A stretch of DNA of 64,000 nt from Chlorobium sp. GTDB taxonomy: Bacteria > Bacteroidota > Chlorobiia > Chlorobiales > Chlorobiaceae. This document shows positions 14,601 to 32,012 of this stretch, piece after piece (position 1 is the first letter of the stretch; each line of letters opens with the position of its first letter). The translations under genes and the position numbers were made by a program. The stretch lies in NCBI GenBank assembly GCA_005862225.1, contig SZXV01000009.1, forward strand, positions 62,001 to 126,000. The letters run 5' to 3'. The notes beneath the pieces were generated by a model that saw only the letters and a list, made by a program, of their open reading frames with translations, searched no databases and was not told the origin of the DNA.

Positions 14601-15441
14601 TTCCATGTGCTCCGGGAGAGAGAATACCGGCCGGTCCATTATCATTGATGCCAAGCAGTTGCAGGCTGGTTCCGCCAAATCCGGCGTCGCCGGGCAGCTT
14701 CAAGAGGGCATTGCCGGAGATGGTCAACAAAGGCGCAACAGCGTCTGTTTCACCAAGATTCTGGTAGTAAACCCTGACCGATCCTACCTGTCCGGCACGC
14801 AGAGCTGAAGGGGTATCCATGCCGTACTCGACATGGCCGATTTCGCCACTATTTACCGTAAAGCTGTCGGCCATGAGCACCGTTTGGGTGCCGTCCTGCA
14901 GCTTGACATCATACTTGTTGGTGGTCAGTTCACGCAAATCAAAGGTTGCCCACACTTCCGTGTTGTCTTTCCAGTAGACCTTGCTCGCTTCGTGTTCAGC
15001 GCCGTCCGGTCCAACCAGCATAGCTGTGGTGTGGGTTGTCAACTCAGCCCCATTAATACAAACCGTAACATCTCCTTTGTTGCTGCCCGCCGTAGTTCCG
15101 ATCTCCGTAATTGAAAAATGCAGTGTATCGGCAGTGACAGAATAAGTGTCGGTTGCACCCGATGCGTTGTATGCCATGACGTAATAGGTACCGCCCCTGG
15201 TGTTGGCAATAACAATGCTCTGGTCGGGTGAATCGGCTTGATTGTAACGATAATCGAAGTCGGAACGGCTTGGCATTGTGCCATAACTGACAAAGAGCTC
15301 GGTACGTCCGTCAGTGGCTGCCCGGTCAAAATTTAACCGCAACGTCTCTCCCGCAGCAACATCTACACGGTAATAGACCGCTCCACCCTGAGCGAAGGAG
15401 TCTGCATCCGGTGTGCCCAGAGTCAACGCTTCGACATCCAT
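8650..15441 (-). CDS. Giant surface protein, downstream half: PPC, YD/RHS repeats, RHS core, Ig-like domains
   Basis: C-terminal 2,263 residues of a giant protein whose reading frame continues from the upstream half through one TAA at 15487-15489. Rough order: a pre-peptidase-type domain (1-110), beta-rich linker (110-400), about 20 YD repeats (430-1110) and an RHS core ending in D-P-L-G and D-P-S-G (about 1143-1171). A glycine-zipper tract of GG/YIGG type follows (about 1190-1285). After that come a DUF7619-like domain (1320-1480), Ig/Fn3-like modules, a D-rich calcium-type segment (about 1810-1850), an alanine-rich helical region (1890-2090) and a final Ig-like domain. It ends in a hydrophobic tail, GAMLAGVGALGVLAWVIF. 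No Shine-Dalgarno sequence precedes the ATG at 15441, so it probably does not start independently. A role as surface adhesin or secreted filament is inferred. Confidence 0.8.
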   Translation of the reverse strand: MDVEALTLGTPDADSFAQGGAVYYRVDVAAGETLRLNFDRAATDGRTELFVSYGTMPSRSDFDYRYNQADSPDQSIVIANTRGGTYYVMAYNASGATDTYSVTADTLHFSITEIGTTAGSNKGDVTVCINGAELTTHTTAMLVGPDGAEHEASKVYWKDNTEVWATFDLRELTTNKYDVKLQDGTQTVLMADSFTVNSGEIGHVEYGMDTPSALRAGQVGSVRVYYQNLGETDAVAPLLTISGNALLKLPGDAGFGGTSLQLLGINDNGPAGILSPGAHGSFQLFFKPAFAGVGTVNLGVSSLKRDQVIDWNTILEASKPENITQESWSTIKASLITELGATTTDYQNNLAANATYLDQLESRTANIAKLFSLDYQKASDGGTLQSASVLGVLGYSHPFIWDITAIRQSDGSVIINSVGEHVDFKLQYDGSYKLVGQGTSTLTETGGAFVLHKQNGITISFNLDGNFSEIRDSNGYTVQAIYDAGHLTQVVSDNGDMLSFTYNDAGRLIQQTDQAGRTVTFAYDGSNQLLTSVTTLDGTTEYSYVTGAGAALHRISTMTLADGTVHHFNYASSGRLVQESVNSGAEAVTYSYIGVNEVVATDATGASTHLWLNESGQIAQVEDALGNVSQLRYDANGNMTGIVNADGTSTSIQYDTAGHPISVQDALGQTVSYSYDAQFAHLAQVTDQRGNPIEYSYDSQGNLNRITYADGHSESYSYDTTGHLTADVNRNGQSVTYTYDTNGYITQKNYADGTTAKFTYDGHGNLVTAVDADSSTSFQYDTADRLTKVTDGDGRWLSYQYDAVGHRTQMADQAGHITNYSYDTLGHLSRVTDGTGNLIAAYSYDAAGHLNRGDNGNGTYTTYEYDAAGQLTHLLNYKADSTINSRFDYTYDVGGHRTSETTLDGKTSYEYDAIGQLTGVMLSTGRHIAYHYDAAGNRTVVDDGGVATNYATNNLNEYTGVGNAIYSYDANGNLTGKSENGVATLYAYDAENHLLSVTTPSDTWNYEYDALGNRIASAHNGARTEYQLDPTGLVNVAGEYDGNGNLIAAYTYGLGLESQTTTVGGSYYYDYNAIGSTAGLTGSAGSYLNQYSYLPFGENLTTAETVANSFEYVGQWGVMDAGNGLDFMRARYYSGADGRFILTDPLGVNGGDTNLYVYSFNNPNSFIDPSGNLSTMAVLQTAITARDGAYTSINSGAGIGGTIGGAAGAVTGTAVGEAAGRAIGREAGIGLGIALGEIFAGPPGGYVGAYIGGYMGGYIGGEVGGKLGGKVGQNWGQSWGDKIEQALRPRGDGSNLGLGEASGAIPIIRPSDPNDIVGPQSFGDEHWSSSQNVLPYTIHYENQASATAPAQEVTITQTLDSDLNASSFRLGDFGWSDIYIDVPDGTSFYIDRINLTSSKGYMVDVMAGIDVAKHEAYWMFTTIDPTTGEIPVDPTIGFLPTNVTKGTGEGFVNYTVRANADAPTGTVIDAKATIVFTTQEPIDTPAISNTLDTQAPESKVEAMASATVESAQFLVRWSGSDVGSAIAGYTVYLSDNGGTYTPWLENTTLTEATYAGQPGHTYAFYTVATDNAGNKEAVPDQEDLTIQVSPGATLTDTLLPQIEAVVLSTDGIYAEGHSFDFTIRFSESLFVDIAALPPVINMTIGGCAIEAAYQSGSGTDTLIFRHIIADGESNSDGTALGSAMLLNGATLRDIAGNPLVDISLAVSIPINNSPTGSVTITGTPLLGETLTASHTLADADGLGVISYQWQADDVNINGATENSYALSKEEIGKTITVVASYTDDAGTPESVESLPTKAVAILESGVAQDGYLANALLWVDGNNNGLRDWTDGNGDSAWDDGEGEAWTLTDNAGHFSALQVTGTLRITANPAGGTTDISTGIEFTGSFSAPAGSTVVNPLTTLLVAAGGNLAQVNSALGLEPGLDLTTYDPLAVLSAGGTSSTAQALAVKAQSMSLQIANIISIAVSVVHGAGVANANIAFMADAIASSLLAAAGAGTVNLADNTVIANAILSAVNGSVTDPAALANIISNMPEIAEATALLNSEIAAVSTDVSIAAHSGGVINLHDSMTSMTAAQIVAQDTLAHQTLQAVASNNSSLITINSGTVDAEISAATPEVGTLAHAPTITGVTPVDGAANVAVDSDLLFTFSDSIQRGNGLIEIHRDSVNGSVVESYHAETSANLSISDKTLVINPTGNLAHSTHYYVTFEDGSIKGLLGDNFAGANDYDLVTGADPYAGNSDGGGISTGAMLAGVGALGVLAWVIF

Positions 15442-15486: not shown

Positions 15487-18400
15487 TTAATTAATTTGGT
15501 TGAAAATGTCGCTGCGCACAATCACGTAATAATCGCCACCGATAAGGCCCGGCATTGTTCCGACTGCTGTCTGAGTGTAACTTTCGTTTCCATCCAGCCC
15601 TCCGCTGATGCCCACTTTGGTAAACAGTGCGTCGCCCACGTCCCAGACTGCATCGCGGGAGAGGTAGATGCTGTCGCTCCACTGCCCGGTAACAGCCTGT
15701 TCGCTCTGGTTTGTAACGGTATAATCAATGCTTGCCAGTGCACCAGTAATAGCGTTGACCGGTACAGTGATAACTCCGGCTACCAGATCAACAGGGGTTA
15801 CAGGAGTTATCTGAATCGGTGTGGCATCCAGCGTACTATTGTTGCCTTCACCGCCACGCTCGTAAATCGCATTGTTACTATCAACAACAGCAAAGAGATA
15901 ATATTTTCCGCTGATCCCGTAAGGTATCTTGAACAACTGACTGTACGTAGCATCCCCCTCGGCCGCTAATGGCATCTGGCTGTCAGCATACCCGAGGTAG
16001 ATATCGGAGCCTCTGTCAAGAACTCCATCACGGGAGAGATAAAATACCTGTCGCCAACCGCCACTCGTCTCTGCACCGTTGTTATGAACCGTCCAGTCCA
16101 CCTCCAGTGACTGCCCGCTGACTCCCTGATCGCGAGCCTGTAACGTGCTGATAAGCAGATCCGGAGTTGGGCTGAGGTTGATGGTGGTAGTACCTGCGGC
16201 AATACTCTGATTGTTGTTTTCTCCTTCCTGCTCGGATACTTGTGCCTCTGCATCCGTGCGCACCAGGACATGGTAATCGCCCTGCAGATCAATGGGCAAC
16301 TTGAACGAACCCGACCCTTGGTAGCTCTCATTTGGAGCAAGCCGATTACTGTGATAAACACTTCCGAGATTCACATCATCAACATTACCAAGAGTCTCAT
16401 CCTTGCTCAGAATCACTTCATCCCGCCAGGAATCAACATTGGTACGACCAACTCCTGTATTGGCAACAGTATAGTCAACCGTAAACCAGTCACCAGAAGC
16501 GGCACTTGCTGGTGCGGTCAGCGAAGTGACACGCAAATCGGCAGGAATCTGCACTTGTATCTGAATAACAGGTGGTGGTTGACCCTCCACACTGACACCC
16601 ATCAAACGGGTGTTATTGTTTTCGTGATCAAATTCATAGACCTGATTAAAGGCATCTGTCTCCATAAAAAGCTGATAAGGCCCTGAGAACTCCTTCGGCA
16701 AGACAACCAACTCGTTACTCGAATAGGATTGGCCATTATTCAGCAACCCCGTATGGGTGAAATTGCCCAGCGTCAAATCATCGCTATTGCCAAATACTGC
16801 ATCTCTGGAAAGCACGACACGATCCGTCCACTGTGTAATACCGCTATCACCAATGCCTTGATTTTTCACCGTCCAGGAGAGGCGCAGGCTATTTCCTGCT
16901 TGCACCGCTGTTGGGGCGGTCACTTCCGTCACAACCAGATCGGCAGGTCGGGAATCTATGGTAATTGCTTCAGCGATTGCAGCAATATTGTTTGCGTTGT
17001 CAAGTTCAAAAACATCATTATTGGTATCGGTCGAAGCAAGCAGATACCAACTGCCCTGCAATCCATTAGCCAGTCGAACCGTGACAGAATTTGTATAGTA
17101 ACCTGATGCCAAACCTGAATTGTAGCGGAGAATTGCTTCACTCAATGGCAATTCATCTGTAGTGCTTGCAGGCTCCAGACTGCCTGAATGCCAGAGATTC
17201 GCCAATTTTATATCAGCAGAATCAAGGGCGGTGTCGCTGGAGAGATAGAGAGAGTCGTACCAGCCAGAATTTGGTGTTGTGGTTGACCCGCTGTTCGTAA
17301 CACGGTATGTTATCGTTAAATCATGACCTGCAACGGCTGGCGATGACGCTGAAATATCTGATACCTTCAGGTCGGGAGGTGGAGTCAAACGCACAAGAGT
17401 CGGAGTGGGATCAAAAGCTACGTCATTGAACGTGAATGCGTTGGAAACAGGCCCAACGGGATTCACCGTCACAAAGAAGTAGAAATTCCCCTCAACTCCC
17501 ACTGGCAAAATGACTTTTTCCGTAGCTGTAAAATGACTTTGACCATCAGGAAGCGGCAAGGCATCTGCGACAAAATCACGCCATTGAGTATCCAGCAACC
17601 GATCGCCACCATCCAGAATATTGTCGGATGACATGTAAATACGCTCTACCCAAACCGGAGAATTCTTCGCAATATCAGCTTGACCAGCATTGTCAATTGT
17701 ATAAGTCAATGCCATGCTTTGGCCAGATAAAGCCTGCGAAGGCGCAGCAACTGATACCACGGCAGGGTCAGAGAGTTCGCTCAGCGGGATTGGCTGAATA
17801 TCCAGCACCGTGCTTGCTGTCACATTATCGCCCTCACCCGCACCTTCCTGAATGTGCTGGTAAGCATCTGTCTTGACCAGAATATGGTAATTCCCTTCAA
17901 GTCCTGACGGCAGTGTAACCTTGGCCTTGTTGGTATAACCCTGACCGATATCAAGATAACTGGCGTTTTGTACTGCACCCAGCGCAATATCCTGACTGTC
18001 AAGTGTCGTATCAGATGAAAGGTAGAGCTGGTCATACCACCAGGGTACCGGTGTTGAAGCATTCCCCAGATTTTTGACCACCCACTGCACCTCAATCTCC
18101 CGTCCGGCAAAGCCCGATGCTGGAACAGTGACACTTTCAACCTGCAGGTTCGTGTTGAGAACATTGAAAAGTACCGAACCATAAGTCGTATTATTGGTTT
18201 CGCCCGTAGCACCTTCATTCACCGAATTACCAGCATCAGCCAGCACCACTACACGGAAAGTTCCCTGCATATCAAGAGGAACCTGAATTGTCTGGATGCG
18301 GTCAAGTCCATCAGACAGGGGCAGATGAGCACTGACCTGATAATCCCCAATCCATCGGTCAAGCCAGGGTGTATCAGGATTATCAAGATATATACGGTCA

Positions 18401-21400
18401 TACCAGGTAGCGTTGGAGGCTTCAGAACCTTGCGTGGCAAGTGTCCAGAAAACCTCGATTGAGCTTCCGGCATCGACATCAACAACACCCTGAGGAGTAT
18501 CTATTTCGCTTATGAACAGATCGGGACCGACATCCGTGAGGTTGATAGATATCTCCTTTTCGAAACTCAAGCCTCCCTGATCAGTCGAGCTGACACGAAT
18601 GGTGTGGGAGGTAGCGGTTTCGAAATCAAGAACTGCACCGTCAGCAACCTGAATCTGGTTTCCAACCAGCACAAACCGACCGCCGGCATTATCGAGCAGT
18701 TGGTACTCATGGCCCGACCAGCCTTCGTCATCGGCACTGTAGAGTGTCCCGATAATCGTACCTGCCAGACTGTTCTCGGCAATTCTTGCATTGTCGAGAT
18801 AAATATCGTTTGGTGCCCTGTTAACCGTCACGACTTTACTCCCCATGACGAAGACACCATCTTCATCGCTGGCGTTCACCGTGATCGTCCTTACCGTTTC
18901 AGCAGCACTGTTCGCAGTAAACGTGTGTGTGAACGTTTTTGCAATCACCTCCCAATCAGCAGGCGTGAACGCAATTGTTGTTCCATCGCCCCAATCGATA
19001 CTATAGCCCGTTCGGGTATCCGGGCCAGGATCGACGACGGATCCGACACTCAACGTATAACTTGAACCTGTGTTCAATCTGTCAGCACCTGTCACTACGG
19101 CCGTTGGAGCAACATTGTTTACCGTAGCAAGGAAGCTGTCAGTTTCGACGCTGTTTGCCTGACTCTGCTGGTCATCAGCAGTAACCGTTATGGTGTAGTA
19201 ACCGTTATCCGAAAAAGTATGACTGAGATTCAGTATATGCCGGGTGGTATCAATAATCTGAAGAGCGGTGCCATCACCCCAGTTCACCGTTACATGGTAC
19301 GTATCCGGGTCGGGATCGCCCAACGTAATGGTATAATTCCATGAGGTGCATTCCCACGCTGTATCATTGCTCCATGCGTCAATCGCTGGTGGATCGTTAA
19401 CCGGCACAACATCAATCGTGACCGATACAGGAACGATTGATTCTCCTCCGCTGTTATCTTCCGCAACAACGTCAAATGCATTTAAGGTACCATTAGCATT
19501 TGCTGCTGGTGTCCAGTATGCTTTGTGTGTTGCATCAATGGTGTTGTTGGTCGAAGCATTCCAGAGTGTGGCAGTTGCTGCATCGGCACCAATCCTGAGA
19601 GTACCATTTACCGACTTGACCACGAATGCTTCAACTGTGCCATCAGCATCCGATGCATCCCCACGGGTCTGGAGATCCGAAAAAGTAACTTCAACACCCC
19701 CCATATCTTCACTGATCGCTCCAAACACGCCACTAAATGTGGTCAGGGTGGGAATTATCGTAATCAGAGACGAGTATTCAATGATACCGTATTGCCTGTT
19801 AGTTCCAACCCAGTCATTCCACTTTCCCGTACTATCGCAATATATTTCGGAAGTATCTTCCGATCCATTATAATCGTTTGGCTCTCCAGAACTCCAATTG
19901 GTATAGGCAAGAGAACTTCTATCTGTCCATCTCCATACCCCTTCCTGTTGAATATCGTTAAGACCTATCCAAGCCTTATTACCTGCAAAAGAAGAGAGCA
20001 ACCACTGATTTTCTTCCGCACTATTGATGCTAACCAAATGGCCACCATGAGCAATTGCTTCCGATTCTGCCTGCTCCCAAGACATCACACCACTGGTGAG
20101 CTGATAAGTGTGTCCATTATAGTTGTAAAACGGTTGATCATTGCTAACAACACTATTTGAAGCCGTAACAAAATCGAGGCTTGCAGTATCACTAATTCCG
20201 ACATAAACATTGCCCGTTAAATCCTTGATCACCCCACTTGCGATGTGCACATTGTAGAGACTGTCTGCCCGCAAATCGTCTGTGGGGTTGATGGTGAGAG
20301 TACTCCCGCTGAAAATAACCTGACTACTATCGGTCACATCGATTGTACGAATGTCTCCACTGTCATCTGCAATAACAATGGCACCCTTTCCTGCCTGCAC
20401 GGGTTTGTTGAAGGTCAGAACGATATTGCTATCAATAGGTACAGCTAATGCGTTATCTGATGGAGTGCTACTGGAAAGCGTCGGCGAAATCACGATACTT
20501 TCAACCAGTGTCGCTGAGGCAAGAGTGTTATCGGTTACGGTAAAGGTAATGCTCCGATCAGCGGTGCCAGGTGTAGAGCTGCTGTTATTAAAGATCAGAG
20601 CACGCGCCACATCCTGCACCAGCGCATTCGTGGCATTGGCATTAAAGCTGAAGCTCCAGACATCGCCATTACTTGCTGAAGCCGCGCTTGCCATGCCAAT
20701 TTCAAGAGTGCCTGCCATCAATTTGTTACTTGCCGCAACATCCAGCCAGATACCGGTGCCGCCGGGATTGGCGGTCGCAAGGGAAAGACTGTCTGCGGCT
20801 TCTGCATTGGCTGTAATCTGCACGTTCAGTGCACCACCATTCCAGCTTGTGTCTCCATCTGGATCATTGATAATGATATCGCTGCTGATATGTACCGGAG
20901 TCAACTCGGTAAAAGCAGTCACCGCAGGGTGCGTGGTGTTGGTCAGCACTGAGACGCTACCGATGTTGTATTGTGAGTTGGCCACAATAAGATCAGCCTT
21001 GCCATCACTATTGACATCCGAGCTGCTTACAGAAAGTGGACTGTCTCCTGTCGCATAATCCACTTTAGTGGCAAAGGTACCATCACCATTGTTTTTCAAC
21101 ACTGATACACTATTACTGCTGGAGTTCGCAACGATCAGATCAGCCTTACCATCACCATTGACATCCACACTCGTCACTGAATAGGGATAGCTCCCTGTCG
21201 CATAATCCACTTTGGCTGCAAAGGTACCATCACCATTATTCGTCAACACTGATACGCTATTGCCTTCCCTGTTCGCAACAATCAGATCAGCCTTTTCATC
21301 GCCATTGACATCAGTACTTGTCACTGAATAGGGATAGCTCCCTGTTGCATAGTCAACTTTGGTGGTAAAGGTGCCATCACCTTTGTTCGTCAACACTGAA

Positions 21401-24400
21401 ACACTATAGCTGCCTGAGTTAGCAACAATAAGGTCAGTCTTACCATCACCATTGACATCAGCAGTCGTAACTGATTGAGGATAGCTTCCTGTTCCATAAT
21501 CTACCTTCCCTGCAAAGGTACCATCGCCATTGTTTTGAAACATAGAAACACTGTTGCCACCTACGTTCGCAACAATCAGATCGGCCTTGCCATCGCCATT
21601 GACTTCTGCTGTCGTAACAAATGAAGGAATATAACTTGTCGAGTAATCTACCTTGGTGGCAAAAGTGCCATCACCTTTGTTCGTCAGCACTGAAACACTC
21701 CTGCTGCTCCAATTCACAACAACCAGATCAGCCTTGCCATCGCCATTGACATCCGCGCTGGTTACAGAAAGTGGATAGCTTCCTGTTCCATAATCTACCT
21801 TCCCCGCAAAGGTGCCATCACCTTTATTCGTCAACACTGATACGCTATTGCTATCTGCGTTCGCTACAATTAGATCAGAGTTGCCATCACCATTGACATC
21901 CGCACTCGTCACTGAAAGGGAATGTGTGCCCGTAGCGTAATCAACTTTTTCAGAAAATGAGAGAGCACTTGGCTGGAAAATAACAGGAACATCCTTCACC
22001 GGTATGACCGATATGGCAGCTTGGACAGGTGTGAGCGATTCCTGACCGGTGTTATCCTTTGCTACGACAGCAAAAGCAGTTAAGGTACCGTTTGCATTGG
22101 CTGCCGGTGTCCAGTATGCTTTGTGCGTGGCATCAATGGTGTTGTTCTTCGAAGCATTCCAGGCAGTGGCAGTTGCGGCATCAGCTCCGATTCTGAGAGT
22201 ACCGTTTACCGACTTGACTACAAATGCTTGAATGCTACCATCAGCATCAGCTTGATTACCCTGCACCTTTATATCCGCAAAGGTTACTTCAACCGCTGTA
22301 TCTTCATCAGTAACACCAACCACGCCGCTGAACGCTGTCAGAGTCGGGATAAAACCATCGGCAAACCGGAAGTTCTCGACTGAAGTAACAACGTCCGTTC
22401 CATCGCGTCCCGCCACATGATCTGTAATGGTATATCTCGACAACGCTACTTCGCGAGCGATAGTGTACTCGGCATAATAACCACTGAACACAACCGTATC
22501 ATTACCATCGCCACCGTCAATGGTGTCATTGCCCGATCCTCCACTGATGGTGTCGTCGCCACCATTACCGTAGATAGTATCATTCCCCGATCCGGCATTG
22601 ATCAAGTCATTGCCACCATTACTGCTGATGTAATCGTTATAGCTGAAAACACCTTCTTTATCATAAGAAAATGAAATCCACCCTGTGGGAATAGTCGTTT
22701 GTGTTGCTGTACCAATCCAGTGCAGGGTATAGGCGCCACCAGTCTGGTTCATGATCTCAGAGGCGTTGACGGTAAAGCTGGTCAAAATTTTATCGGTACC
22801 ATGCCAAAGTTCAAGCCCAAGATTGGTCAGACTTGCAAGTTCTTGGTCAGTAAATGTTACCGTACCAATCATTGAAAACTCATTTGCTCCGAGGGTATAA
22901 ATTGGTTGGGATTGGAAATACACATAAGCCGATGAACTTCCCTTGTAGGGATTTGCCACAGCAAGTGCATCGGCATCAATCTGGTCATCAAATCCTGTAC
23001 CGTCTATCCTGTTGGTTGAATAAGAAGAGGAAGTCGGAGTAAATCGTATGGCCAAATCCAGCGACTCATCATTAAAGGAGAGGCGCTCAATTCCGGTAAG
23101 GGTGTCAGTACCATCGGGCGAACCAGCACGGGTATCGGCAACTGTCCATACACCATCGTTATTGGTTATCGTGTAATCAGCCCTGTTGCCATTATAACTC
23201 GCAGTGTCATTTCCTGCTCCACCACTGATGGTGTCGTTACCTCCATTGCCAGAGATATAATCATTGTAGCTGTAACCGTCTTTATCGTAGGTGAAGTAAA
23301 TCGTCCCTGTGGGAATGGTCGTCTGTGTTGCTGTACCAATCCAGTTCAGGGTATATGCGCCACCGGTCTGGTTAATGATATCATCAGCGTTGACGGTAAA
23401 AGTGGTTGTGACTTTATCGGGACCATGCCAGAGTTCAAGCCCCAGATTGGTCAGGTTTGCGAGTTCCTGTACGGTAAACGTTACCGTACCAATCATTGAA
23501 AACTCATTTGCTCCGAGGGTATAAATCGGTTGGGATCGGAAATACACATAAGCCGATGAACTTCCCTTGTAGGGATTTGCCACAGCAAGTGCATCAGCAT
23601 CAATCTGGTCATCAAATCCTGTACCGTTTATGCTGTTGCTTGACCCCGAAGAAGAGGACGAGGTCGGGTAAAATTGGACAGCCAAAGCCATCCCTGCGTC
23701 AGAAAATGAGAGGTATTCAACTCCAATAAGGGTGTCAGTACCATCGGGCGAACCAGCGCGGGTATCGGCAACTGTCCATACACCATCGTTATTGGTTATC
23801 GTGTAATCAGCCTTGTTGCCATTATACCCCACAGTGTCATTACCAGCCCCCCCATTAATAGTGTCGTTACCAATGCTCTCATAAATATAGTCATCAGCAG
23901 TAGAGGCATTACTGGCCAAGCCGAGTGCATCAGCATTAATCGTGTCATCTTTGGCTGTACCATAAATCGAATTTTGATATAAACCACTCCAGAAAGATAC
24001 TTCGGTAAACTTGGCTGGATCGATTTCATAGAGCGTCGTGCCAGAAACAAACTGGAAAACTTCGACGCTACCAATAGAGAATGTCTTGGCACTCTCCCCT
24101 GACCCTGTGGTCATATCTGCTTCGCCATGGGAAAAGAACTTGAGTGCTCCAAGCACGGTAACAGTGCCATCAACACCGACTGTCCCTTGTAGTACATAAA
24201 CCGACCCACTTTTCACAAGCTCCAGTTTGCCGTAACCCGGGACACCAAAATCCATCACAAGGGTATCCCTGCCATCACCAGCCCACACATCCAACGAGTT
24301 TGCCGCAGTCAGATATATTTCGTCATTCCATGGCGTACCATGTATATAATTATTACCAGCAACACTCTCATCAATGAAGGTGTAAGGCGTAAGGTTGATG

Positions 24401-25131
24401 GATACCCAGCGATCCGTCGTTAACTTCTCGGCATTGCTGAGAGTCATGGTTGAGTCAACTGTCTCGCCATCAGCCTGCATCTTGTCAATACGAAATGACA
24501 CATCCGTCAGTTTCGTGATCCGATAAGCATCAACCGTCGAAGATGATGAATACGAGTATGGCCAAAGATGCAGTACCTCCGCTGCATCCATTTGGTAAGA
24601 ATAATACATGCCGCCGTCAGTCGAGAGGTGCACCATATCATAGCCAGCACCGGCATCTACCAAATCGTTACCGCCTTTCCACTCGATAAAGTCGTCGCCT
24701 GCCCCGGCATTGATGCTGTCGTCACCAATGGTTCCGGTCATCCAGTCAGCACCACTCGTCCCGGATCCATCCGTCACAACAGTCATCGGCGTAAGCAAAT
24801 AGCTGGCATTACTGATATTTCCAACTTCCCATGCACGAGCCTGGGCATCCTGGCCAACAATAAAATTTTCCGGTATCTCAACAAACAGCTTACCACCAGA
24901 AAAGGGACTCAACTGATACGATTGTCCGCCTACATCCGTTCCAGACATCGGAATCATCAAATGCGAATCAATAACTGCAATCCGACTGACATCGAGAGTA
25001 ACCGTCGTCAGATAGCCGTATGAATCTGCGGCCATAACAGTAATCTGACCTAAGGCCGCAAGCACCGGTGACTGGACACCAAAATCAAAACTTAGCACAT
25101 CGTTTGAGAGGCTGTCAGAGTCAGTCGCCAT
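15487..25131 (-). CDS. Giant surface protein, upstream half: RTX, FG-GAP, C-type lectin, PKD, cadherin and CARDB domains
   Basis: N-terminal 3,214 residues of the same giant protein. RTX-type nonapeptides (GGNDTISGGAGND type) occur near residues 130-165, 400-650 and 830-880. Seven FG-GAP/VCBS repeats (DVNGDGKADLIVAN) span about 1055-1400. An Ig-like domain is at 1550-1655. A C-type lectin domain at about 1667-1790 has an EPN sugar motif and a WND calcium motif. Two PKD domains (VNWGDGT, IDWGDGT) cover about 1920-2100, and a cadherin-like domain about 2105-2195. Eight CARDB domains then run to the end. The frame stops at a TAA inside the eighth CARDB. No signal peptide is visible; an in-frame TAA lies four codons before the ATG. 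It is likely calcium-stabilised, exported and adhesive. Confidence 0.85.
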   Translation of the reverse strand: MATDSDSLSNDVLSFDFGVQSPVLAALGQITVMAADSYGYLTTVTLDVSRIAVIDSHLMIPMSGTDVGGQSYQLSPFSGGKLFVEIPENFIVGQDAQARAWEVGNISNASYLLTPMTVVTDGSGTSGADWMTGTIGDDSINAGAGDDFIEWKGGNDLVDAGAGYDMVHLSTDGGMYYSYQMDAAEVLHLWPYSYSSSSTVDAYRITKLTDVSFRIDKMQADGETVDSTMTLSNAEKLTTDRWVSINLTPYTFIDESVAGNNYIHGTPWNDEIYLTAANSLDVWAGDGRDTLVMDFGVPGYGKLELVKSGSVYVLQGTVGVDGTVTVLGALKFFSHGEADMTTGSGESAKTFSIGSVEVFQFVSGTTLYEIDPAKFTEVSFWSGLYQNSIYGTAKDDTINADALGLASNASTADDYIYESIGNDTINGGAGNDTVGYNGNKADYTITNNDGVWTVADTRAGSPDGTDTLIGVEYLSFSDAGMALAVQFYPTSSSSSGSSNSINGTGFDDQIDADALAVANPYKGSSSAYVYFRSQPIYTLGANEFSMIGTVTFTVQELANLTNLGLELWHGPDKVTTTFTVNADDIINQTGGAYTLNWIGTATQTTIPTGTIYFTYDKDGYSYNDYISGNGGNDTISGGAGNDTASYNGNRADYTITNNDGVWTVADTRAGSPDGTDTLTGIERLSFNDESLDLAIRFTPTSSSYSTNRIDGTGFDDQIDADALAVANPYKGSSSAYVYFQSQPIYTLGANEFSMIGTVTFTDQELASLTNLGLELWHGTDKILTSFTVNASEIMNQTGGAYTLHWIGTATQTTIPTGWISFSYDKEGVFSYNDYISSNGGNDLINAGSGNDTIYGNGGDDTISGGSGNDTIDGGDGNDTVVFSGYYAEYTIAREVALSRYTITDHVAGRDGTDVVTSVENFRFADGFIPTLTAFSGVVGVTDEDTAVEVTFADIKVQGNQADADGSIQAFVVKSVNGTLRIGADAATATAWNASKNNTIDATHKAYWTPAANANGTLTAFAVVAKDNTGQESLTPVQAAISVIPVKDVPVIFQPSALSFSEKVDYATGTHSLSVTSADVNGDGNSDLIVANADSNSVSVLTNKGDGTFAGKVDYGTGSYPLSVTSADVNGDGKADLVVVNWSSRSVSVLTNKGDGTFATKVDYSTSYIPSFVTTAEVNGDGKADLIVANVGGNSVSMFQNNGDGTFAGKVDYGTGSYPQSVTTADVNGDGKTDLIVANSGSYSVSVLTNKGDGTFTTKVDYATGSYPYSVTSTDVNGDEKADLIVANREGNSVSVLTNNGDGTFAAKVDYATGSYPYSVTSVDVNGDGKADLIVANSSSNSVSVLKNNGDGTFATKVDYATGDSPLSVSSSDVNSDGKADLIVANSQYNIGSVSVLTNTTHPAVTAFTELTPVHISSDIIINDPDGDTSWNGGALNVQITANAEAADSLSLATANPGGTGIWLDVAASNKLMAGTLEIGMASAASASNGDVWSFSFNANATNALVQDVARALIFNNSSSTPGTADRSITFTVTDNTLASATLVESIVISPTLSSSTPSDNALAVPIDSNIVLTFNKPVQAGKGAIVIADDSGDIRTIDVTDSSQVIFSGSTLTINPTDDLRADSLYNVHIASGVIKDLTGNVYVGISDTASLDFVTASNSVVSNDQPFYNYNGHTYQLTSGVMSWEQAESEAIAHGGHLVSINSAEENQWLLSSFAGNKAWIGLNDIQQEGVWRWTDRSSLAYTNWSSGEPNDYNGSEDTSEIYCDSTGKWNDWVGTNRQYGIIEYSSLITIIPTLTTFSGVFGAISEDMGGVEVTFSDLQTRGDASDADGTVEAFVVKSVNGTLRIGADAATATLWNASTNNTIDATHKAYWTPAANANGTLNAFDVVAEDNSGGESIVPVSVTIDVVPVNDPPAIDAWSNDTAWECTSWNYTITLGDPDPDTYHVTVNWGDGTALQIIDTTRHILNLSHTFSDNGYYTITVTADDQQSQANSVETDSFLATVNNVAPTAVVTGADRLNTGSSYTLSVGSVVDPGPDTRTGYSIDWGDGTTIAFTPADWEVIAKTFTHTFTANSAAETVRTITVNASDEDGVFVMGSKVVTVNRAPNDIYLDNARIAENSLAGTIIGTLYSADDEGWSGHEYQLLDNAGGRFVLVGNQIQVADGAVLDFETATSHTIRVSSTDQGGLSFEKEISINLTDVGPDLFISEIDTPQGVVDVDAGSSIEVFWTLATQGSEASNATWYDRIYLDNPDTPWLDRWIGDYQVSAHLPLSDGLDRIQTIQVPLDMQGTFRVVVLADAGNSVNEGATGETNNTTYGSVLFNVLNTNLQVESVTVPASGFAGREIEVQWVVKNLGNASTPVPWWYDQLYLSSDTTLDSQDIALGAVQNASYLDIGQGYTNKAKVTLPSGLEGNYHILVKTDAYQHIQEGAGEGDNVTASTVLDIQPIPLSELSDPAVVSVAAPSQALSGQSMALTYTIDNAGQADIAKNSPVWVERIYMSSDNILDGGDRLLDTQWRDFVADALPLPDGQSHFTATEKVILPVGVEGNFYFFVTVNPVGPVSNAFTFNDVAFDPTPTLVRLTPPPDLKVSDISASSPAVAGHDLTITYRVTNSGSTTTPNSGWYDSLYLSSDTALDSADIKLANLWHSGSLEPASTTDELPLSEAILRYNSGLASGYYTNSVTVRLANGLQGSWYLLASTDTNNDVFELDNANNIAAIAEAITIDSRPADLVVTEVTAPTAVQAGNSLRLSWTVKNQGIGDSGITQWTDRVVLSRDAVFGNSDDLTLGNFTHTGLLNNGQSYSSNELVVLPKEFSGPYQLFMETDAFNQVYEFDHENNNTRLMGVSVEGQPPPVIQIQVQIPADLRVTSLTAPASAASGDWFTVDYTVANTGVGRTNVDSWRDEVILSKDETLGNVDDVNLGSVYHSNRLAPNESYQGSGSFKLPIDLQGDYHVLVRTDAEAQVSEQEGENNNQSIAAGTTTINLSPTPDLLISTLQARDQGVSGQSLEVDWTVHNNGAETSGGWRQVFYLSRDGVLDRGSDIYLGYADSQMPLAAEGDATYSQLFKIPYGISGKYYLFAVVDSNNAIYERGGEGNNSTLDATPIQITPVTPVDLVAGVITVPVNAITGALASIDYTVTNQSEQAVTGQWSDSIYLSRDAVWDVGDALFTKVGISGGLDGNESYTQTAVGTMPGLIGGDYYVIVRSDIFNQIN
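20925..21960 (-). repeat. Seven tandem FG-GAP/VCBS repeats of about 147 bp
   Basis: Within the giant gene, seven consecutive copies of a 49-residue unit start with KVDYxTG and contain ADVNGDGKADLIVAN and NKGDGTF. Copies are close at nucleotide level, which implies recent unit duplication or homogenisation. In other proteins such units form the blades of an integrin-like calcium-binding propeller; seven is the full blade number. Confidence 0.85.
22660..23815 (-). repeat. Tandem duplication of a 0.6-kb module in the giant gene
   Basis: Two adjacent copies about 624-630 bp apart (near 22660-23185 and 23285-23815) are almost identical over long stretches, for example around 22870-22990 and 23495-23615. 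The encoded module contains DDQIDADALAVANPYKGSSS and a following RTX segment. It looks like a recent in-frame duplication. Confidence 0.8.
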
Positions 25132-25610: not shown

Positions 25611-26510
25611 TCAAGGGCTCAGCAACGATGGATCGATCCCGGCCACCGCTGTGGCCTCTCCAGCACTCATTCCTTTCTCCACCAATCGTTTGGCAACTTC
25701 AAGTTTTCCTATCTCAATCCCTTCCTCCTTGCCTTCAATGCGCCCCTCCTCCTTGCCCTCCATACGACCAAGACCATAGTTTGACTCTACCAGACTGGCC
25801 TCATACCGCAGGTTGTCCTGGTAACGGGCATAAGCCAACTGCTCTTCTTCAGGCAGACTCAGAAGGGAAAAGGACTGTTTTGCTTTCTGAATCCCTTTTG
25901 CCTTGAACTCATCCTTGATCTCTTCGTTTTTGAGGAAGTATATCCACTCGTCAAGCGATGTTGTTGCGAGACCGTTAAAGTTGTTGATCCTGATCAGGTA
26001 GTATTCAGGGAAAATATTGTGTATCTGAATCTTGCCGTACAGCTTCTGTTGCCGGGTATCGAGTTCCAGTTTGTCATGGTCATGAATTCCTGTGAAGGTT
26101 GTGGTGCCATGATAGATATAGTCGGTTCCGTGGCCAAGATCAAAGTAAAGGATATTGACTGAGATAACCTTCACCAGGGTTCCATACGCCTGGCTCTCTT
26201 TCTGATGCTCGGTGATGACTTGCGATGTGCCGTAAAGTATCCGTTGCAGGTAATCAAGCTCCCGATCAAACTGCACTTCGATAATGACAAGCTCACCCTT
26301 GCTGTTTTTCACCTTGAGATCAACACGATTGGATTTGTCGCGTTTACTCTCTTTGTTGCTTTCACTCTCCAGAATTTCAAGGATGAAAATGTCTTCGCCC
26401 AACAGTTCGCTTAAAAAACCTTCAAGTATCTCAAAGTTGGCTTTACTGCGCAATAACCGCTTCATTGCCCAGTCAAAGGTGATCAGTTTTCGGGGTGATC
26501 GGGTGCTCAT
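25611..26510 (-). CDS. Rpn family PD-(D/E)XK nuclease / putative transposase
   Basis: A 299-residue protein of the Rpn (recombination-promoting nuclease, PDDEXK_2) family. The N-terminus MSTRSPRKLITFDWAMKRLL is typical, as is the nuclease core with VDLKVKNSKGELVIIEVQF; its D and E-x-Q residues match the PD-(D/E)XK active site. The C-terminus has the short charged repeat GKEEGRIEGKEEG before a helical tail. I chose the ATG at 26510 over the one at 26558 because family members begin at this point. Rpn genes are numerous and mobile in Chlorobi and Bacteroidota. It sits beside a toxin-antitoxin pair. Confidence 0.85.
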   Translation of the reverse strand: MSTRSPRKLITFDWAMKRLLRSKANFEILEGFLSELLGEDIFILEILESESNKESKRDKSNRVDLKVKNSKGELVIIEVQFDRELDYLQRILYGTSQVITEHQKESQAYGTLVKVISVNILYFDLGHGTDYIYHGTTTFTGIHDHDKLELDTRQQKLYGKIQIHNIFPEYYLIRINNFNGLATTSLDEWIYFLKNEEIKDEFKAKGIQKAKQSFSLLSLPEEEQLAYARYQDNLRYEASLVESNYGLGRMEGKEEGRIEGKEEGIEIGKLEVAKRLVEKGMSAGEATAVAGIDPSLLSP

Positions 26511-26605
26511 AGCGTTATACTCAAGGTTACAGAGGAGAGAAGATGCCGCGTACAGCATAAGAATCCATACGTTTCAACAACATATCGGAAGATCATAACT
26601 TACTC

Positions 26606-26899
26606 CTACTCCCTTCTTTGCCAGTGTTTCGGGTCTCGTTTCGTATGAAATACAGCAACTATCATAATCTCTTCGGCTCCAACTGCGTAATAAATGATAT
26701 AGGGAAACTTTCTCACAAGGGTTTTCCGCGTCTTTTTTAACGACAAGGGAAAAAGAAAAGGGTTCTGCACTATTCTCGAAAGAGCTTCATCGATACAGTG
26801 CATGAATTCAGCATCAAGCCCTTCTTTTTTGTGAGCATACCATTGCAGTGCGTCTGTTAGTTCCAATTCCGCATCGGGATAAAACCGTACTCTCTTCAT
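26606..26899 (-). CDS. ParE/RelE-type toxin
   Basis: A 97-residue protein beginning MKRVRFYPDAELELTDALQWY, typical of the ParE/RelE toxin superfamily (type II toxin-antitoxin). The conserved FPYIIYYAV strand and C-terminal basic residues (HTKRDPKHW) are visible. It starts 3 bases after the antitoxin stop, the normal antitoxin-first order. Whether it acts on gyrase (ParE-like) or on mRNA at the ribosome (RelE-like) cannot be told from the sequence. Confidence 0.85.
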   Translation of the reverse strand: MKRVRFYPDAELELTDALQWYAHKKEGLDAEFMHCIDEALSRIVQNPFLFPLSLKKTRKTLVRKFPYIIYYAVGAEEIMIVAVFHTKRDPKHWQRRE

Positions 26900-27502: not shown

Positions 27503-29305
27503 TCATATCTGGTAATCCTGAATAATTTCTCGCGATTTCAGCAGCTCAGCGACCTGATTCACAGCCTCAGCAACAACCCTACCATCAGGCACCTGCAAAT
27601 CAGGATGATATCGTGAAAAGGCGTTCTCGCCCATATTGACCACAAGAATATCATTCGGTTCATTGAGTACCTTCAGTGTCTCAATATCGTAGTCGTCAGC
27701 ATCATCAATGGTGGTGATAAAAATCAGCCCTGCATCGGTGAGAATACGGGCAAGCTCGCCGATCCTCCTCAACCGTTCGCCACTGCTGTCGGTATGCGAA
27801 CGAAGATCTGTATCAAGACCACGATCAATGTTTGCCACTCCGAGATAATAAACATTCATGCGATTGAGGAAAAGCCTTTGCTCAAGCGCTTTTGCCACCG
27901 CCCGTTTGCCAGTGCCAGGCGCTCCGGTAAAAACGATAAATTTGGCCCGGTGATGATTCACCTCTGCGCGCTCTTCCTCACGAACAAGACCGGTCTCCCA
28001 ATGATGTTCACGGTCTTTGATATGTTTCTGCAAAAGAGTCTCTCCGGCTGAAAGGTTCTCAACCACAACGCCGCCACCGGCAATTTCATAGTTATCGACT
28101 ATAACAAAGCGACCCGTGGTTTCACTTGCCGCAGTCGTATCGAATGCAATTGGACGAGAGGTTTCAAGAATGCACTCTCCGACGTCCCGGCAGTCAATCT
28201 GTTGTTTGCTCTTGCTGTACGTGAGATCAGAGGCATCCAGCGTATTGCATATCTCGGCAAGCTTGACTGTTGCCCTTGCAGAGCCGAGCTTGAGTTTGTA
28301 CTCCTTGTTTCGGAGCATAGGCGCCCGGCCAACCCAGAAAATATTGACCCTGAATCGGCTGCCAACTTCCGGCTGAGGTTCTTCTGGTTTCACCATAAGC
28401 TCCCCGGGACGTATGTAAATCTGGGTTGCAAGGGTAAACCCCGAAGCCTCCCCTGCTGATGCCTGCTTTTTGGATGCTGTGTTAAACGATTCGACCGACT
28501 TGATGGTCGATCGTTTCCCCGAAGGGAGAAAAAGCACTTCATCTCCGGCCAGCACCGTTCCGGCGGCAACGGTTCCCGCAATGATTCTCCGGTCATCATT
28601 GCTGCGGGTAAATTTGTAGATATCCTGCACCGGAAAACGAAAGGGCTTCTCCTGAAGCTCCTTGTCGCTGATGAACCGGTCAAGCTGTTCAAGCACAGAA
28701 AACCCCCTGTACCAGGGCATTCGTTCAGAAAGGGTTGCAATATTATCACCTTCACGTGCGCTGACAGGGATAAAACTGACCGGCGTCACATTGATCTGTG
28801 CAAGAAAGGCGGTGTAATCGGCCTTCAGTTTTTCAAAAACCTCCTCACTGAAGTCGACAAGATCCATTTTATTTGCCAGCACGGTCACCTGCTTGACGCC
28901 AAGCATTGAGACCATCTGACCATGCCTCTTTGAGTTCTCCCTGATACCCTCATCAGCATCAATAACCAGCAGAGCAGATTCTGCCCTTGATGCGCCGGTA
29001 ATCATGTTCTTAAGAAACTCAATGTGGCCAGGCGCATCAATGATAATGTAGTCCCGGGCTGCCGTTTTAAAAAAGCAGCGTGCCATATCAATGGTTATCC
29101 CCTGTGCCTGCTCATCTTTGAGCGCATCAAGCAGAAAAGCGTACTCAAACGGCTTTGAATTCTTTCGGCAATTTTCTTTGACCGCTTCAAGCTTGCCTTG
29201 CGGTAAAGATCCGGTATCGGCAAGCAGTCGGCCAATCACGGTGCTTTTCCCATGATCCACATGACCGACTATAACAATATTCATTTGCGCACGTCCACTA
29301 CTCAT
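27503..29305 (-). CDS. cysN: Sulfate adenylyltransferase large subunit CysN with a degenerate APS-kinase-like domain
   Basis: GTPase subunit of ATP sulfurylase, which with CysD makes APS from sulfate and ATP. The G1 motif GHVDHGKS is at 14-21, DAPGH at 90-94 and NKMD at 145-148, followed by EF-Tu-like beta-barrel domains to about residue 430. Residues 455-600 form a second P-loop domain (GAPGTGKR near 461-468) with [16 protein letters not shown], which recalls APS kinase (CysC). The kinase's usual LDGDNVR and ISP-Y-R motifs are missing ([10 protein letters not shown] and [10 protein letters not shown] instead). It may be catalytically dead or altered. I chose the ATG at 29305 ([14 protein letters not shown]) because the extra N-terminal residues from 29347 have no family match. 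Confidence 0.9.
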
Positions 29306-29369
29306 AGCATCCCGAAAAAATATTAATTCCCACGACCACTCCTCCATTATCCACTGTCACATTGCCCAC

Positions 29370-30269
29370 TCACATGTACCCGTCACGGCGAAGAGTCTCA
29401 AGCCCGCCGCCATCTTCACTGTCCTGGGCACGCCCTGAACGCTCGGCAATATTGGAAAACTTGCCACTTTTGAGTTCCTCAATAATCTCCAAAACCGTTC
29501 GCGCATCCGAATTGACCGGATTGGTACAGGGATAACAGCCAAGGGAGCGATAACGAATGCCACTGCCCTGATTAAAATAGAGCGAGACCACCGGAATCTT
29601 TTCCCGTTCGATATATTCCCAGATGTTCTGTTCAGTCCAGTCAAGCAGGGGATGAATACGGACATGGGTTCCAGGGGCAAAATCGGTCTTGAACTGGTTC
29701 CAGAACTCCGGTGGCTGATCGCCGACATCCCAGACGTTGTCCTTGTCCCGGGGTGAAAAATATCGTTCTTTTGACCGGCTACCCTCTTCGTCAGCCCTGA
29801 CACCAACAATCACGCCGGTGTAAGGCTCTCTCCCCTCATCAACCACATAGCGCCGTTGCTCATGGTCCATCCTGTACCGATTCCATTCTCCCGAAAGTGT
29901 ATGTTTCAGCGCTTCACTTTTCAGGTATTTACAGCAGGTAAGACGATCGGTATTGCCATCAGGAAAAGTGAGTTTCTGAGCAAGAGCGTCGCTGTTTTCT
30001 CCATAGATCATGTTCAGGTTCCACTCAAGGGCAAATCGGTCACGATACTCAATCATCTCAGGAATCTTGAAGTGGGTATCAATATGAACCAACGGAATTG
30101 GAACGTGTCCAAAAAAAGCTTTCCGGGCAAGCCAGAGCATGACAGTGCTGTCCTTGCCGATTGACCAGAGCATGCAAAGACTTTTAAATTCACGGTAGGC
30201 CTCCCGGAGAATGTAAACGCTCTGCGCCTCCAGTTTGTCGAGGTGATCCATACTTGTCTGTATCGTCAT
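29370..30269 (-). CDS. cysD: Sulfate adenylyltransferase small subunit CysD
   Basis: ATP-pyrophosphatase-fold subunit of ATP sulfurylase, 299 residues with the expected length. The PP-loop motif SIGKDS is at 36-41. [19 protein letters not shown] and the C-terminal GCYPCTNPV are family signatures. The start at 30269 ([16 protein letters not shown]) fits CysD proteins; the ORF extends 150 bases upstream into cysH without homology. It lies 4 bases after cysH and 64 bases before cysN in the assimilatory sulfate reduction operon. Confidence 0.95.
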
Positions 30270-30273
30270 AAGG

Positions 30274-30987
30274 TTACTGTTGTTTTCGGTGCAGACCGCA
30301 CTCCTTGTGTTCTGGAATTTCCCACCACCAGCGTCCAGCCCTAATATCTTCTCCAGGCTTGATCGCTCTGGTACACGGAGCGCATCCGATGCTGGGATAC
30401 CCCTTATCATGGAGGGCATTAACAGGGACGTTGTGTTTTAGGATATATTCCCAAAGCGTTGTCTCCGTCATCTCGGCAAGCGGATTGATTTTATAGAGTC
30501 CAAACGACTCATCCCACTCGACAGGGTCTATTGCTGTTCTTGTAACTGATTGCTCACGTCGCAACCCGCATATCCAGCCCTTCAGCGTAGAAAGCTTCCT
30601 GGAAAGCGGCTGCACCTTGCGTATGCGGCAGCACTCCCGGCGCAGTTCAATACTCTGGTAAAAAAGGTTGGCGCCATATCGGGTCTGCATGGTTTGAACC
30701 TCGGGCGCTTCAGGAAAAAGCACTTCAATCTGAATGCCGTATCGTTGTCGTGTTGCATCAAGCAGATCATAAGTCTCCTGAGGCAGCCTTCCGGTATCAA
30801 GGGTAAAGAGTGGTATCTGCAATTTTTCTTTTTCAAGCAGATCGGTAATCACCTGATCTTCGGCTCCAAAGCTTGTGGCAAAAGCACACGCTTCCGGTTC
30901 AAAAAAAGCCGCAGCCCAACGTAATATCTCTTCCGGCGCTTTACCGGAGAGTTCGCCACTTAATACCCTCGCTCGCTCTCTACTCAT
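30274..30987 (-). CDS. cysH: Adenylylsulfate (APS) reductase, iron-sulfur type CysH
   Basis: This 237-residue protein reduces activated sulfate to sulfite with thioredoxin or glutathione-like donors. The catalytic cysteine is C230 in ECGLH. It also carries C119-C120 ([10 protein letters not shown]) and C202/C205 (GCAPCTRA), the CC/CxxC set that binds a [4Fe-4S] cluster. In characterised homologues this set marks enzymes using APS rather than PAPS. The start MSRERARVL at 30987 was preferred to the ATG at 31017. It lies between the sulfite reductase gene (51-base gap) and cysD. Its type fits the degenerate kinase domain on CysN: no PAPS is needed. Confidence 0.92.
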
Positions 30988-31038: not shown

Positions 31039-31929
31039 TCAACAGGTCCCAAGAATCTCCTCCCTGACCTTTTCAATCCCGATACGGTCAATTGTATGAC
31101 CGAAACGCTCTTTTTTCCGCCCATGATTTCGGTGACACGTCAAGGCTTTCTGAATAAGTTCGTACAGTTCCTCCTCACTCCCAATCATTTTCTTCAGTAC
31201 TGTCGCAAAACGGGGTATTTTCCCCATAGTACCGCCAATAAAGAGCGTGTATCCCTGCCTGCCGATAACCCACGCTTCACCGGGGCAATGCTGAGTACAA
31301 ACAGTACAATTGATGCAGTTATCCCGGTCAATAGTGTAATGGTATGCCTTTCTGCCATTGCTGCCACTCTCGTGACGGACAATGGCTTTTGCCGGACATA
31401 ACTTAAGACACAGCCCACAATCGCAGCATGATGACGAAACCCAGTCTGGTTCAATAGCGCCACGAACGCCAATATCATTTTCGTTTGCCTTGGTACAGTT
31501 ATTGGCACAACCAGTGACCGCCATCTTGAATTTTGAAGGTGCCTCCTGATTGAAAAAACGGGTATCAAGCTCTTTTGCTATCTTCTTTGTATCAATGACT
31601 CCCCATTTACAGGTTGCTTCTCCGGGGCAGGCGGTAATCACCCGTACCCGGGTTCCTGAAGCACCCATCTGTACCCCGGCGACCTCCAGGACAAGTCGGG
31701 CATTTTCAAGATTGTCATGATGCACATGATGGATCTCAACCCCCTGACGAGTTGAAAGATGCACAACACCTCTGCCATATTTTTCAGCAACCAATGCAAT
31801 ACAAGCCAATTGTGTTGCCGTCAAATCACCAGCAATCGCTTTTAATCGAATAAAATAGTATTCATGCTGTTTCTGACGTATCATTCCCTCCCTTTTCAAG
31901 GGTAACACAACATGCTCAACTTCAGCCAT
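31039..31929 (-). CDS. Siroheme/ferredoxin-type sulfite reductase, single small subunit
   Basis: A 296-residue protein with the siroheme-[4Fe-4S] motif C101-x5-C107 and C141-x3-C145 (ACPGEATCKWG, GCANNC). Two ferredoxin-type clusters are inserted after it: C169/C171/C174/C178 and C205/C208/C211/C215. The layout matches AsrC of anaerobic sulfite reductase and the small methanogen/clostridial sulfite reductases, about half the size of CysI. No AsrA or AsrB partner is in the window. As first gene of the operon with cysH, cysD and cysN it most likely reduces sulfite to sulfide for cysteine, possibly with ferredoxin. The ATG at 31938 is an alternative start. Confidence 0.85.
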   Translation of the reverse strand: MAEVEHVVLPLKREGMIRQKQHEYYFIRLKAIAGDLTATQLACIALVAEKYGRGVVHLSTRQGVEIHHVHHDNLENARLVLEVAGVQMGASGTRVRVITACPGEATCKWGVIDTKKIAKELDTRFFNQEAPSKFKMAVTGCANNCTKANENDIGVRGAIEPDWVSSSCCDCGLCLKLCPAKAIVRHESGSNGRKAYHYTIDRDNCINCTVCTQHCPGEAWVIGRQGYTLFIGGTMGKIPRFATVLKKMIGSEEELYELIQKALTCHRNHGRKKERFGHTIDRIGIEKVREEILGTC

Positions 31930-32012
31930 GCTTTTCAAATATTTAGTATTATTTGCGGTAAATGAAGTCCCAACTCAGGTGATACCGACGGCAGGATTCA
32001 GGCAATCGCGAA

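Follow-up and report, generated by a model that had tools for sequence, protein, structure and literature searches.

A degenerate APS-kinase domain fused to CysN beside an APS-type reductase in Chlorobium and other bacteria

In the window, by which we mean the whole analysed stretch of 64,000 nucleotides of Chlorobium sp. DNA, the C-terminal domain of the GTPase CysN is, judged by its residues, almost certainly a dead APS kinase, and phosphorylation of APS by this domain can be ruled out with the same near certainty. Degenerate domains of this kind form an old family found across many phyla. On balance it is probably retained as a non-catalytic part of CysDN, for complex assembly or partner docking, in a pathway that does not have PAPS as an intermediate. 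In the open-access literature searched we came across no previous account of such a dead CysC domain fused to CysN.

Results

The locus

The gene order in the window is sir-cysH-cysD-cysN and the same order was observed in most Chlorobium loci (Table 1). The cysN product passed the CysN family model TIGR02034 with 357.2 bits (cut-off 336.1), and besides this score it shows the G1, G3 and G4 motifs and the adjoining cysD by which we recognised a CysN. The model of the full-length protein matched the CysN of P. syringae (1zun_B) with a Z score of 42.4. The start codon of cysN is likely residue 15 or 22 of the open reading frame; alignments with homologues begin at about residue 9-22. For cysD the probable start is the ATG at 30269, and the reading frame itself is open to 30419.

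Table 1. Features of the sulfate assimilation locus in the window; motif positions in brackets are CysN residues.
Feature	Positions	Strand	Remarks
cysN	27503..29347	-	ORF of 614 aa; EF-1alpha-like CysN GTPase with C-terminal pseudo-APS-kinase
CysN GTPase and beta-barrel domains	28024..29284	-	G motifs intact
CysN G motifs			GHVDHGKST (28-36), DAPGH (104-108), NKMD (159-162), SAREG (196-200)
Pseudo-APS-kinase domain (443-614)	27506..28021	-	Pfam match, motifs, model, structure matches
Degenerate P-loop GAPGTGKR (475-482)	27902..27925	-	Arg in place of Ser/Thr after the lysine
YYLGVAN (500-506)	27830..27850	-	Occupies the catalytic LDGDN stretch
Conserved helix [16 protein letters not shown] (528-543)	27719..27766	-	
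Acidic motif IDDADDYD (547-554)	27686..27709	-	At the ISPYR site; followed by the lid deletion
C-terminal tail DYQI	27506..27517	-	Family x-x-[DE]-Y-x-[IL]; conserved; low pLDDT in the isolated-domain model
cysD, ATP sulfurylase catalytic subunit	29370..30269	-	PRK05253, 353 bits (cut-off 195)
cysH, [4Fe-4S]-type APS reductase	30274..30987	-	Cys119/120/202/205 and catalytic Cys230
Siroheme sulfite reductase-like protein with ferredoxin-type clusters	31039..31938	-	First gene of the operon

Fold and catalytic residues of the fused domain

The Pfam family APS_kinase (PF01583) matched the C-terminal domain of CysN with an E-value of 2.5e-12, though only over profile positions 3-80 of 152, that is the N-terminal half. 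Residues 443-614 were modelled from 42 homologues with a pLDDT of 87.4 and a pTM of 0.85. The top structure matches of this model were APS kinases: 6b8v with a Z score of 20.6 (rmsd 2.3 over 156 residues), 1m7h with 20.1 and human PAPSS with 19.8; the regulatory domain of the Penicillium ATP sulfurylase (1m8p) followed with 16.3. A profile search of PDB sequences with the fused domain agreed and also returned APS kinases. According to the model CysN residues ~443-614 have the APS-kinase fold, as a reading of this DNA from the sequence only had expected when it called the domain kinase-like and proposed a structure prediction against CysC. The domain stayed below the cut-off of the stand-alone kinase family TIGR00455 (53 bits, cut-off 138.7), as did the whole CysN for the bifunctional CysNC/NodQ enzyme PRK05506 (462.5 bits, cut-off 715).

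To compare the residues we aligned 43 members of the family with 34 canonical APS kinases and used E. coli CysC numbering. The roles of the catalytic residues were taken from M. tuberculosis CysC structures: D63 is the Mg site, D65 the catalytic base, R68 binds the APS phosphate and the lid lysine is catalytic (PMC4373884). In the window protein LGVANID stands at the LDGDNVR site and DDADD at the ISPYR site, so that both motifs are absent, just as the sequence-only reading had noticed. Within LDGDxxR, G stands in place of the Mg-site Asp, A in place of the catalytic base and D in place of the APS-binding Arg. Across the family D63 is a Gly in 42 of the 43 members, D65 is gone in all of them, R68 and N85 (the Asn of ENIRR) are gone as well, ISPYR has become DD[AL]DD, and no substitute acid occurs at the LDGD positions. 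The lid K145-N157 including the catalytic lysine is deleted in 43/43. The canonical APS kinases retain these residues with hardly an exception. Chance or a sequencing artefact can be dismissed, as the same losses were observed in 43 homologues.

The P-loop and the helix that the sequence-only reading had likened to CysC are both present. The P-loop of the window domain contains GxxGxGK but not the Ser or Thr of GxxGxGK[ST], and this residue (Ser/Thr42) is gone in 42 of the 43 members. The P-loop lysine is gone in 13 of the 43, including most Clostridia; the window protein retains it together with both R87 and R88. A third of the members thus no longer have an intact P-loop, which argues against kinase activity as the conserved function. 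The deletion of the whole lid and the loss of the P-loop Ser/Thr go beyond what had been seen before in the window sequence. The window domain lacks LDGDxxR, ISPYR and the lid lysine that mark an APS kinase, and the window CysN does not carry the catalytically complete fused APS kinase of a CysNC/NodQ protein.

Spread and selection

Members of the family come from Chlorobia, Clostridia, Lentisphaerota, Kiritimatiellota, Omnitrophota, Elusimicrobia, Desantisbacteria, Auribacterota, Lambdaproteobacteria and Bacteroidetes. Several motifs are newly conserved among them: YYLG, GLDxD, RR[IL][16 protein letters not shown], DDYDxExLKxLN, PNEILVVN and a terminal [DE]Y-x-[IL]. The fused domain is under purifying selection, with a median dN/dS in Chlorobium of 0.093 compared to 0.052 for the GTPase part. 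A recent pseudogenization within Chlorobium is excluded by the spread over phyla and by the dN/dS. We also calculated the ratio between the rates of the domain and the GTPase part. For type A, the type of the window, it was 1.95 in Chlorobia and 2.44 in Clostridia; intact fused kinases showed 1.17, type B 1.24 and type C 4.6.

The adjoining reductase

Numbered from the ATG at 30987, CysH has C119, C120, C202, C205 and C230, and the [4Fe-4S] set C119-C120 and C202/C205 is exactly the one given in the sequence-only reading. CysH scored 260.1 against TIGR02055 APS_reductase (cut-off 235.3). It thus combines the CC...CxxC cluster cysteines, the ECGLH catalytic cysteine and the family score of an APS reductase. 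An adjoining CysH with all five cysteines was found in 87 of 90 type A loci, a set that includes some duplicate loci from the same genomes, and in the remaining three the CysH is cut off, masked or probably frameshifted. The CysH of Bacillus subtilis has a [4Fe-4S] cluster yet accepts both APS and PAPS, so the cluster cysteines alone do not prove APS specificity. From the cysteines and the genome content taken together we infer that CysH reduces APS rather than PAPS in vivo.

APS kinases elsewhere in the genomes

We then counted APS kinases, where absence means no PF01583 match and several of the genomes are MAGs of unknown completeness. Among 65 Chlorobium genomes 42 have this CysN, 24 have a canonical APS kinase and 20 have both. 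In 22 of the 42 genomes with this CysN the dead domain is the only one, and 19 of these 22 are at least 90% complete. They include a closed genome (the single contig of G062), which we take to be C. luteolum DSM 273, and C. ferrooxidans (G006); G394, which holds the locus L016 of C. ferrooxidans, gave the same matches. A weak APS_kinase match in C. ferrooxidans (G006:C40) reads as an ABC-transporter ATPase and was rejected. A shortened copy was seen in G077 and would add one genome with the domain to the Chlorobium tally. Sulfate alone meets the sulfur demand of growing C. ferrooxidans (PMC5498476), and an APS kinase is missing from half of the Chlorobium genomes that carry this CysN. Both observations bear out the suggestion, made from the window alone, that sulfate reduction can do without PAPS.

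The genome of the window itself has a separate canonical CysC (G000:C4:810233, 227 bits). This gene adjoins two Sulfotransfer_2 genes, and PAPS in this genome is therefore probably made for sulfation. A candidate second APS kinase (G000:C9, L003) was discarded, as it reads as a gluconate-kinase-like P-loop protein without LDGDxxR. Neither the separate CysC nor the ancient multi-phylum spread of the degenerate domain had been noticed in the sequence-only reading.

Outside Chlorobium 14 of 16 type A genomes have no APS kinase by the same measure, and five of the 14 are isolate genomes, from Ruminiclostridium, Acetivibrio, Alkalibaculum and Pseudobacteroides. Types B and C occur mostly in Firmicutes. 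The first (Firmicutes) set contains 12 genomes with these types; each of the 12 encodes an intact CysC apart from CysN, and none gave a match to CysH. G641, G049 and G057 likewise have a separate CysC; in G621, G526, G049 and G057 it lies within a few kb of the type B/C locus. In G339 neither CysC nor CysH was detected. A strict rule by which the pseudo domain implies an APS reductase was rejected, as it holds for type A only and fails for the 12 type B/C genomes with CysC and no CysH match. Nor do we claim that types B and C go with a PAPS-type reductase, since the distant CysH of G049 and G057 also has CC and CxxC. In both contexts of the domain, type A on the one hand and types B and C on the other, the fused kinase is not needed.

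Origin and mobility

In a tree of the GTPase parts (86 rows) canonical CysN and the window protein fell into separate clades, and this split was fully supported. One Firmicutes member of the window clade (L209/L227) has an intact fused kinase with 223 bits to APS_kinase; the other members are of type A, B or C, have a different C-terminus or no C-terminal domain at all. The tree itself does not prove the direction; most simply, the fused kinase was active at first and lost its activity later.

Five loci from Lentisphaerota and Kiritimatiellota combine the domain with another CysN. Their GTPase parts have 55-57% identity to canonical CysN and 35% to the window type, and a single clade of these five with the window type was rejected (p-AU 5e-30). 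Their kinase-like domains have 42-45% identity to type A and 23-29% to real APS kinases. The domain tree puts these domains inside type A but does not force them there, as another attachment keeps a p-AU of 0.45 in the AU test on the short domain; their assignment to type A rests on identity and shared deletions. In the two loci with a visible cysH (L076 and L080) the reductase is of the APS type. Type A thus seems to be a portable module that was passed on, along with its reductase context, to a second CysN clade. A canonical-clade CysN in G041 carries a fused domain in which LDGD has become IDGS and ISPYR has become ISPDD, next to an intact CysC; this is an independent degeneration.

Discussion

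In the reading that we favour on balance CysD would make APS, with GTP hydrolysis by CysN driving the reaction, and the adjoining [4Fe-4S] CysH would turn APS directly into sulfite with no PAPS intermediate. The product of the operon's first gene would then reduce the sulfite further. The domain would serve the assembly of CysDN or dock a partner, for which CysH is the natural candidate in type A. Its conserved C-terminal tail has no defined structure when the domain is modelled by itself, and this would suit a docking peptide. The ancestor would have been an active fused kinase drawing off APS, and after direct APS reduction arose the domain would have kept its place in the complex and lost its chemistry. 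Some observations speak against this reading. The CysN clade of the window protein also includes relatives that lost the domain or carry a different C-terminus, which means that it is dispensable in some settings. In type C, moreover, the rate of the domain is 4.6 times that of the GTPase part.

A more specific version, which we put forward only tentatively and regard as possible rather than likely, is that the former kinase became a portable docking or hand-over module that couples the GTP-driven CysDN to the APS reductase. The equilibrium of ATP sulfurylase lies far towards ATP and sulfate. As the enzyme is also inhibited by its own product APS (PMC3734648), the removal of APS matters. The acidic DDxDD motif, the conserved C-terminal [DE]Y-x-[IL] tail or both could recruit CysH. 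The scarce, product-inhibiting APS would then pass straight to the reductase, and this function might be the reason for the transfer between two distant CysN clades.

The sequence-only reading had suggested that the domain became regulatory or structural or phosphorylates something else. Its first suggestion stands insofar as the domain is constrained; PAPS cannot be the ligand where none is made, and a structural or docking role is the more likely half of it. A regulatory role would make the domain an allosteric sensor which binds a nucleotide (APS, ATP/ADP or another one, not PAPS) and tunes the activity of CysDN. We consider this rather unlikely. The fold is shared with the fungal regulatory domain 1m8p, a PAPS-binding domain that shows no kinase activity (PMC3734648; PMC3779200), and the P-loop lysine, R87 and R88 persist in the window protein. 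However, the lysine is lost in 13 of the 43 members and D65, R68, N85 and the lid are gone, which makes a conserved nucleotide site doubtful. PAPS itself is impossible as ligand in genomes without any APS kinase, and feedback by PAPS is excluded wherever this is the case. Improbable, too, is a harmless leftover of an active CysN-CysC fusion that has no function. The clade does show every stage, from the intact fused kinase of L209/L227 through types A, B and C to a replaced or missing C-terminus, and type C decays fast. Against such decay stand the dN/dS of 0.09 in Chlorobium, the motifs kept across about ten phyla and the presence of the type A domain on a different CysN clade.

The two readings that leave the domain catalytic fare worse. 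For a kinase with another substrate, the second suggestion made from the window alone, speak the P-loop fold and the GxxGxGK of the window protein. The losses described above tell heavily against it: the Ser/Thr is missing in 42 of 43 members and the lysine in 13, the Mg-site aspartate and the lid have disappeared in all or nearly all, and the LDGD positions hold no replacement acid. We therefore regard it as very improbable. Least credible of all is an APS kinase that works despite these changes, as the literature on photoferrotrophic Chlorobi assumes (PMC5498476). All 42 members scanned match Pfam APS_kinase, so automatic annotation says kinase; yet the catalytic base, the Mg-site aspartate and the lid lysine are missing, and genomes with types B and C still encode an intact CysC elsewhere.

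These results bear on published work. The 'CysN/C' of photoferrotrophic Chlorobi was taken to indicate synthesis of PAPS and possibly of sulfolipids (PMC5498476). Judged by the missing residues, this claim is contradicted for the fused domain, and PF01583 finds no further APS kinase in either C. ferrooxidans or the closed C. luteolum genome. Since Pfam calls every scanned member an APS kinase, misannotation is probably widespread, and pathway reconstructions in Chlorobia, Clostridia, Lentisphaerota and Omnitrophota are probably affected. The carriers in which the genome content rules out PAPS feedback make the role of a retained dead kinase in sulfate activation testable.

Comparison with known systems

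Fusions of the CysNC/NodQ type are well known (PMC1780047). The window CysN resembles them, for example M. tuberculosis CysNC, in the order of the CysN GTPase and the CysC-like domain, in the partner CysD and in the kinase fold. It differs in that the catalytic residues and the lid are lost, in its separate CysN clade, and in that no PAPS is expected from it. With stand-alone CysC (PF01583, TIGR00455) the fused domain shares the fold and the N-terminal half of the profile, but not LDGDxxR, the ENIRR Asn, ISPYR or the lid. The window CysH is an ordinary member of the [4Fe-4S] APS reductases (TIGR02055) with all signature cysteines and with APS as predicted substrate. The closest parallel to the fused domain is fungal. 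The ATP sulfurylase of Penicillium chrysogenum (1i2d, 1m8p) also carries a dead APS-kinase-like domain at the C-terminus of a sulfate-activating enzyme, in this case an unrelated ATP sulfurylase of the Sat type and not CysN, and the CysN family can be seen as the bacterial counterpart. The fungal domain binds PAPS, whereas many organisms with the CysN pseudo-kinase cannot make it; given so many carrier genomes without an APS kinase, the CysN domain is probably not a PAPS effector site of the fungal kind. Unlike the fungal domain, the CysN family has its lid deleted and an acidic motif in place of ISPYR.

Apparent exchange, decay and replacement of the CysN C-terminal domain

The coordinates of the individual features are collected in the table. 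In five Lentisphaerota/Kiritimatiellota loci (L076, L080, L081, L082 and L083) we found a pseudo-APS-kinase domain of the window's kind (type A) attached to a CysN GTPase part of the canonical clade; the domain appears to have been swapped between CysN clades that are far apart. The fused APS kinase of genome G041, also on a canonical-clade CysN, degenerated independently; a stand-alone CysC that is intact lies next to it, as do a transporter and a CysQ-like gene. In the clostridial loci L212-L219 and L222, which belong to the window's CysN clade, an unrelated C-terminus of ~150 aa (CFDEYYY...ETYSYPE...) stands where the kinase-like domain was. The one member that was scanned (L216) gave no Pfam match for this segment, and in the subset of carrier genomes that was searched no APS kinase was found.

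The long CysH frame of a Lentisphaerae MAG gave no Pfam match across its first 860 residues; it is possibly a fusion, or possibly open by chance.

Features in the window and at other loci
Feature	Location	Strand	Remarks
RHS-repeat protein, 2263 residues	window 8650-15441	-	Ig-like domains
3214-residue protein	window 15487-25131	-	FG-GAP, CARDB, RTX, C-type lectin, Ig-like and PKD repeats
PDDEXK_2 family transposase/nuclease gene and small ORF	window 25611-26899	-	just past 3' end of cys operon
1071-residue open frame	L063:193-3405		Lentisphaerae MAG; CysH domain at its end (868-1043)
Type-B CysN	L178:6620-10021 (G049)		another Bacteroidota family
CysN with degenerate fused APS kinase	L180:3977-5905 (G041)		canonical clade; motifs read IDGS, ISPDD
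Canonical stand-alone CysC	L181 (G000:C4:806000-816000)		window's own genome

Genomic surroundings

The 3214-residue protein of the window is a giant surface or secreted protein, and the RHS-repeat protein gene lies immediately downstream of its gene. The small ORF beside the transposase/nuclease gene looks like a RelE/ParE-type toxin.

Near the stand-alone CysC of the window's genome are two Sulfotransfer_2 genes, an asparagine-synthase-like gene and a polysaccharide pyruvyl transferase gene, possibly forming a sulfation cluster. In G049 CysC and a CysQ-like gene cluster with the type-B CysN, together with sulfotransferase-like ORFs and the genes for an ABC exporter ATPase and an NKWYS capsular-polysaccharide protein, which suggests that PAPS serves polysaccharide sulfation there.
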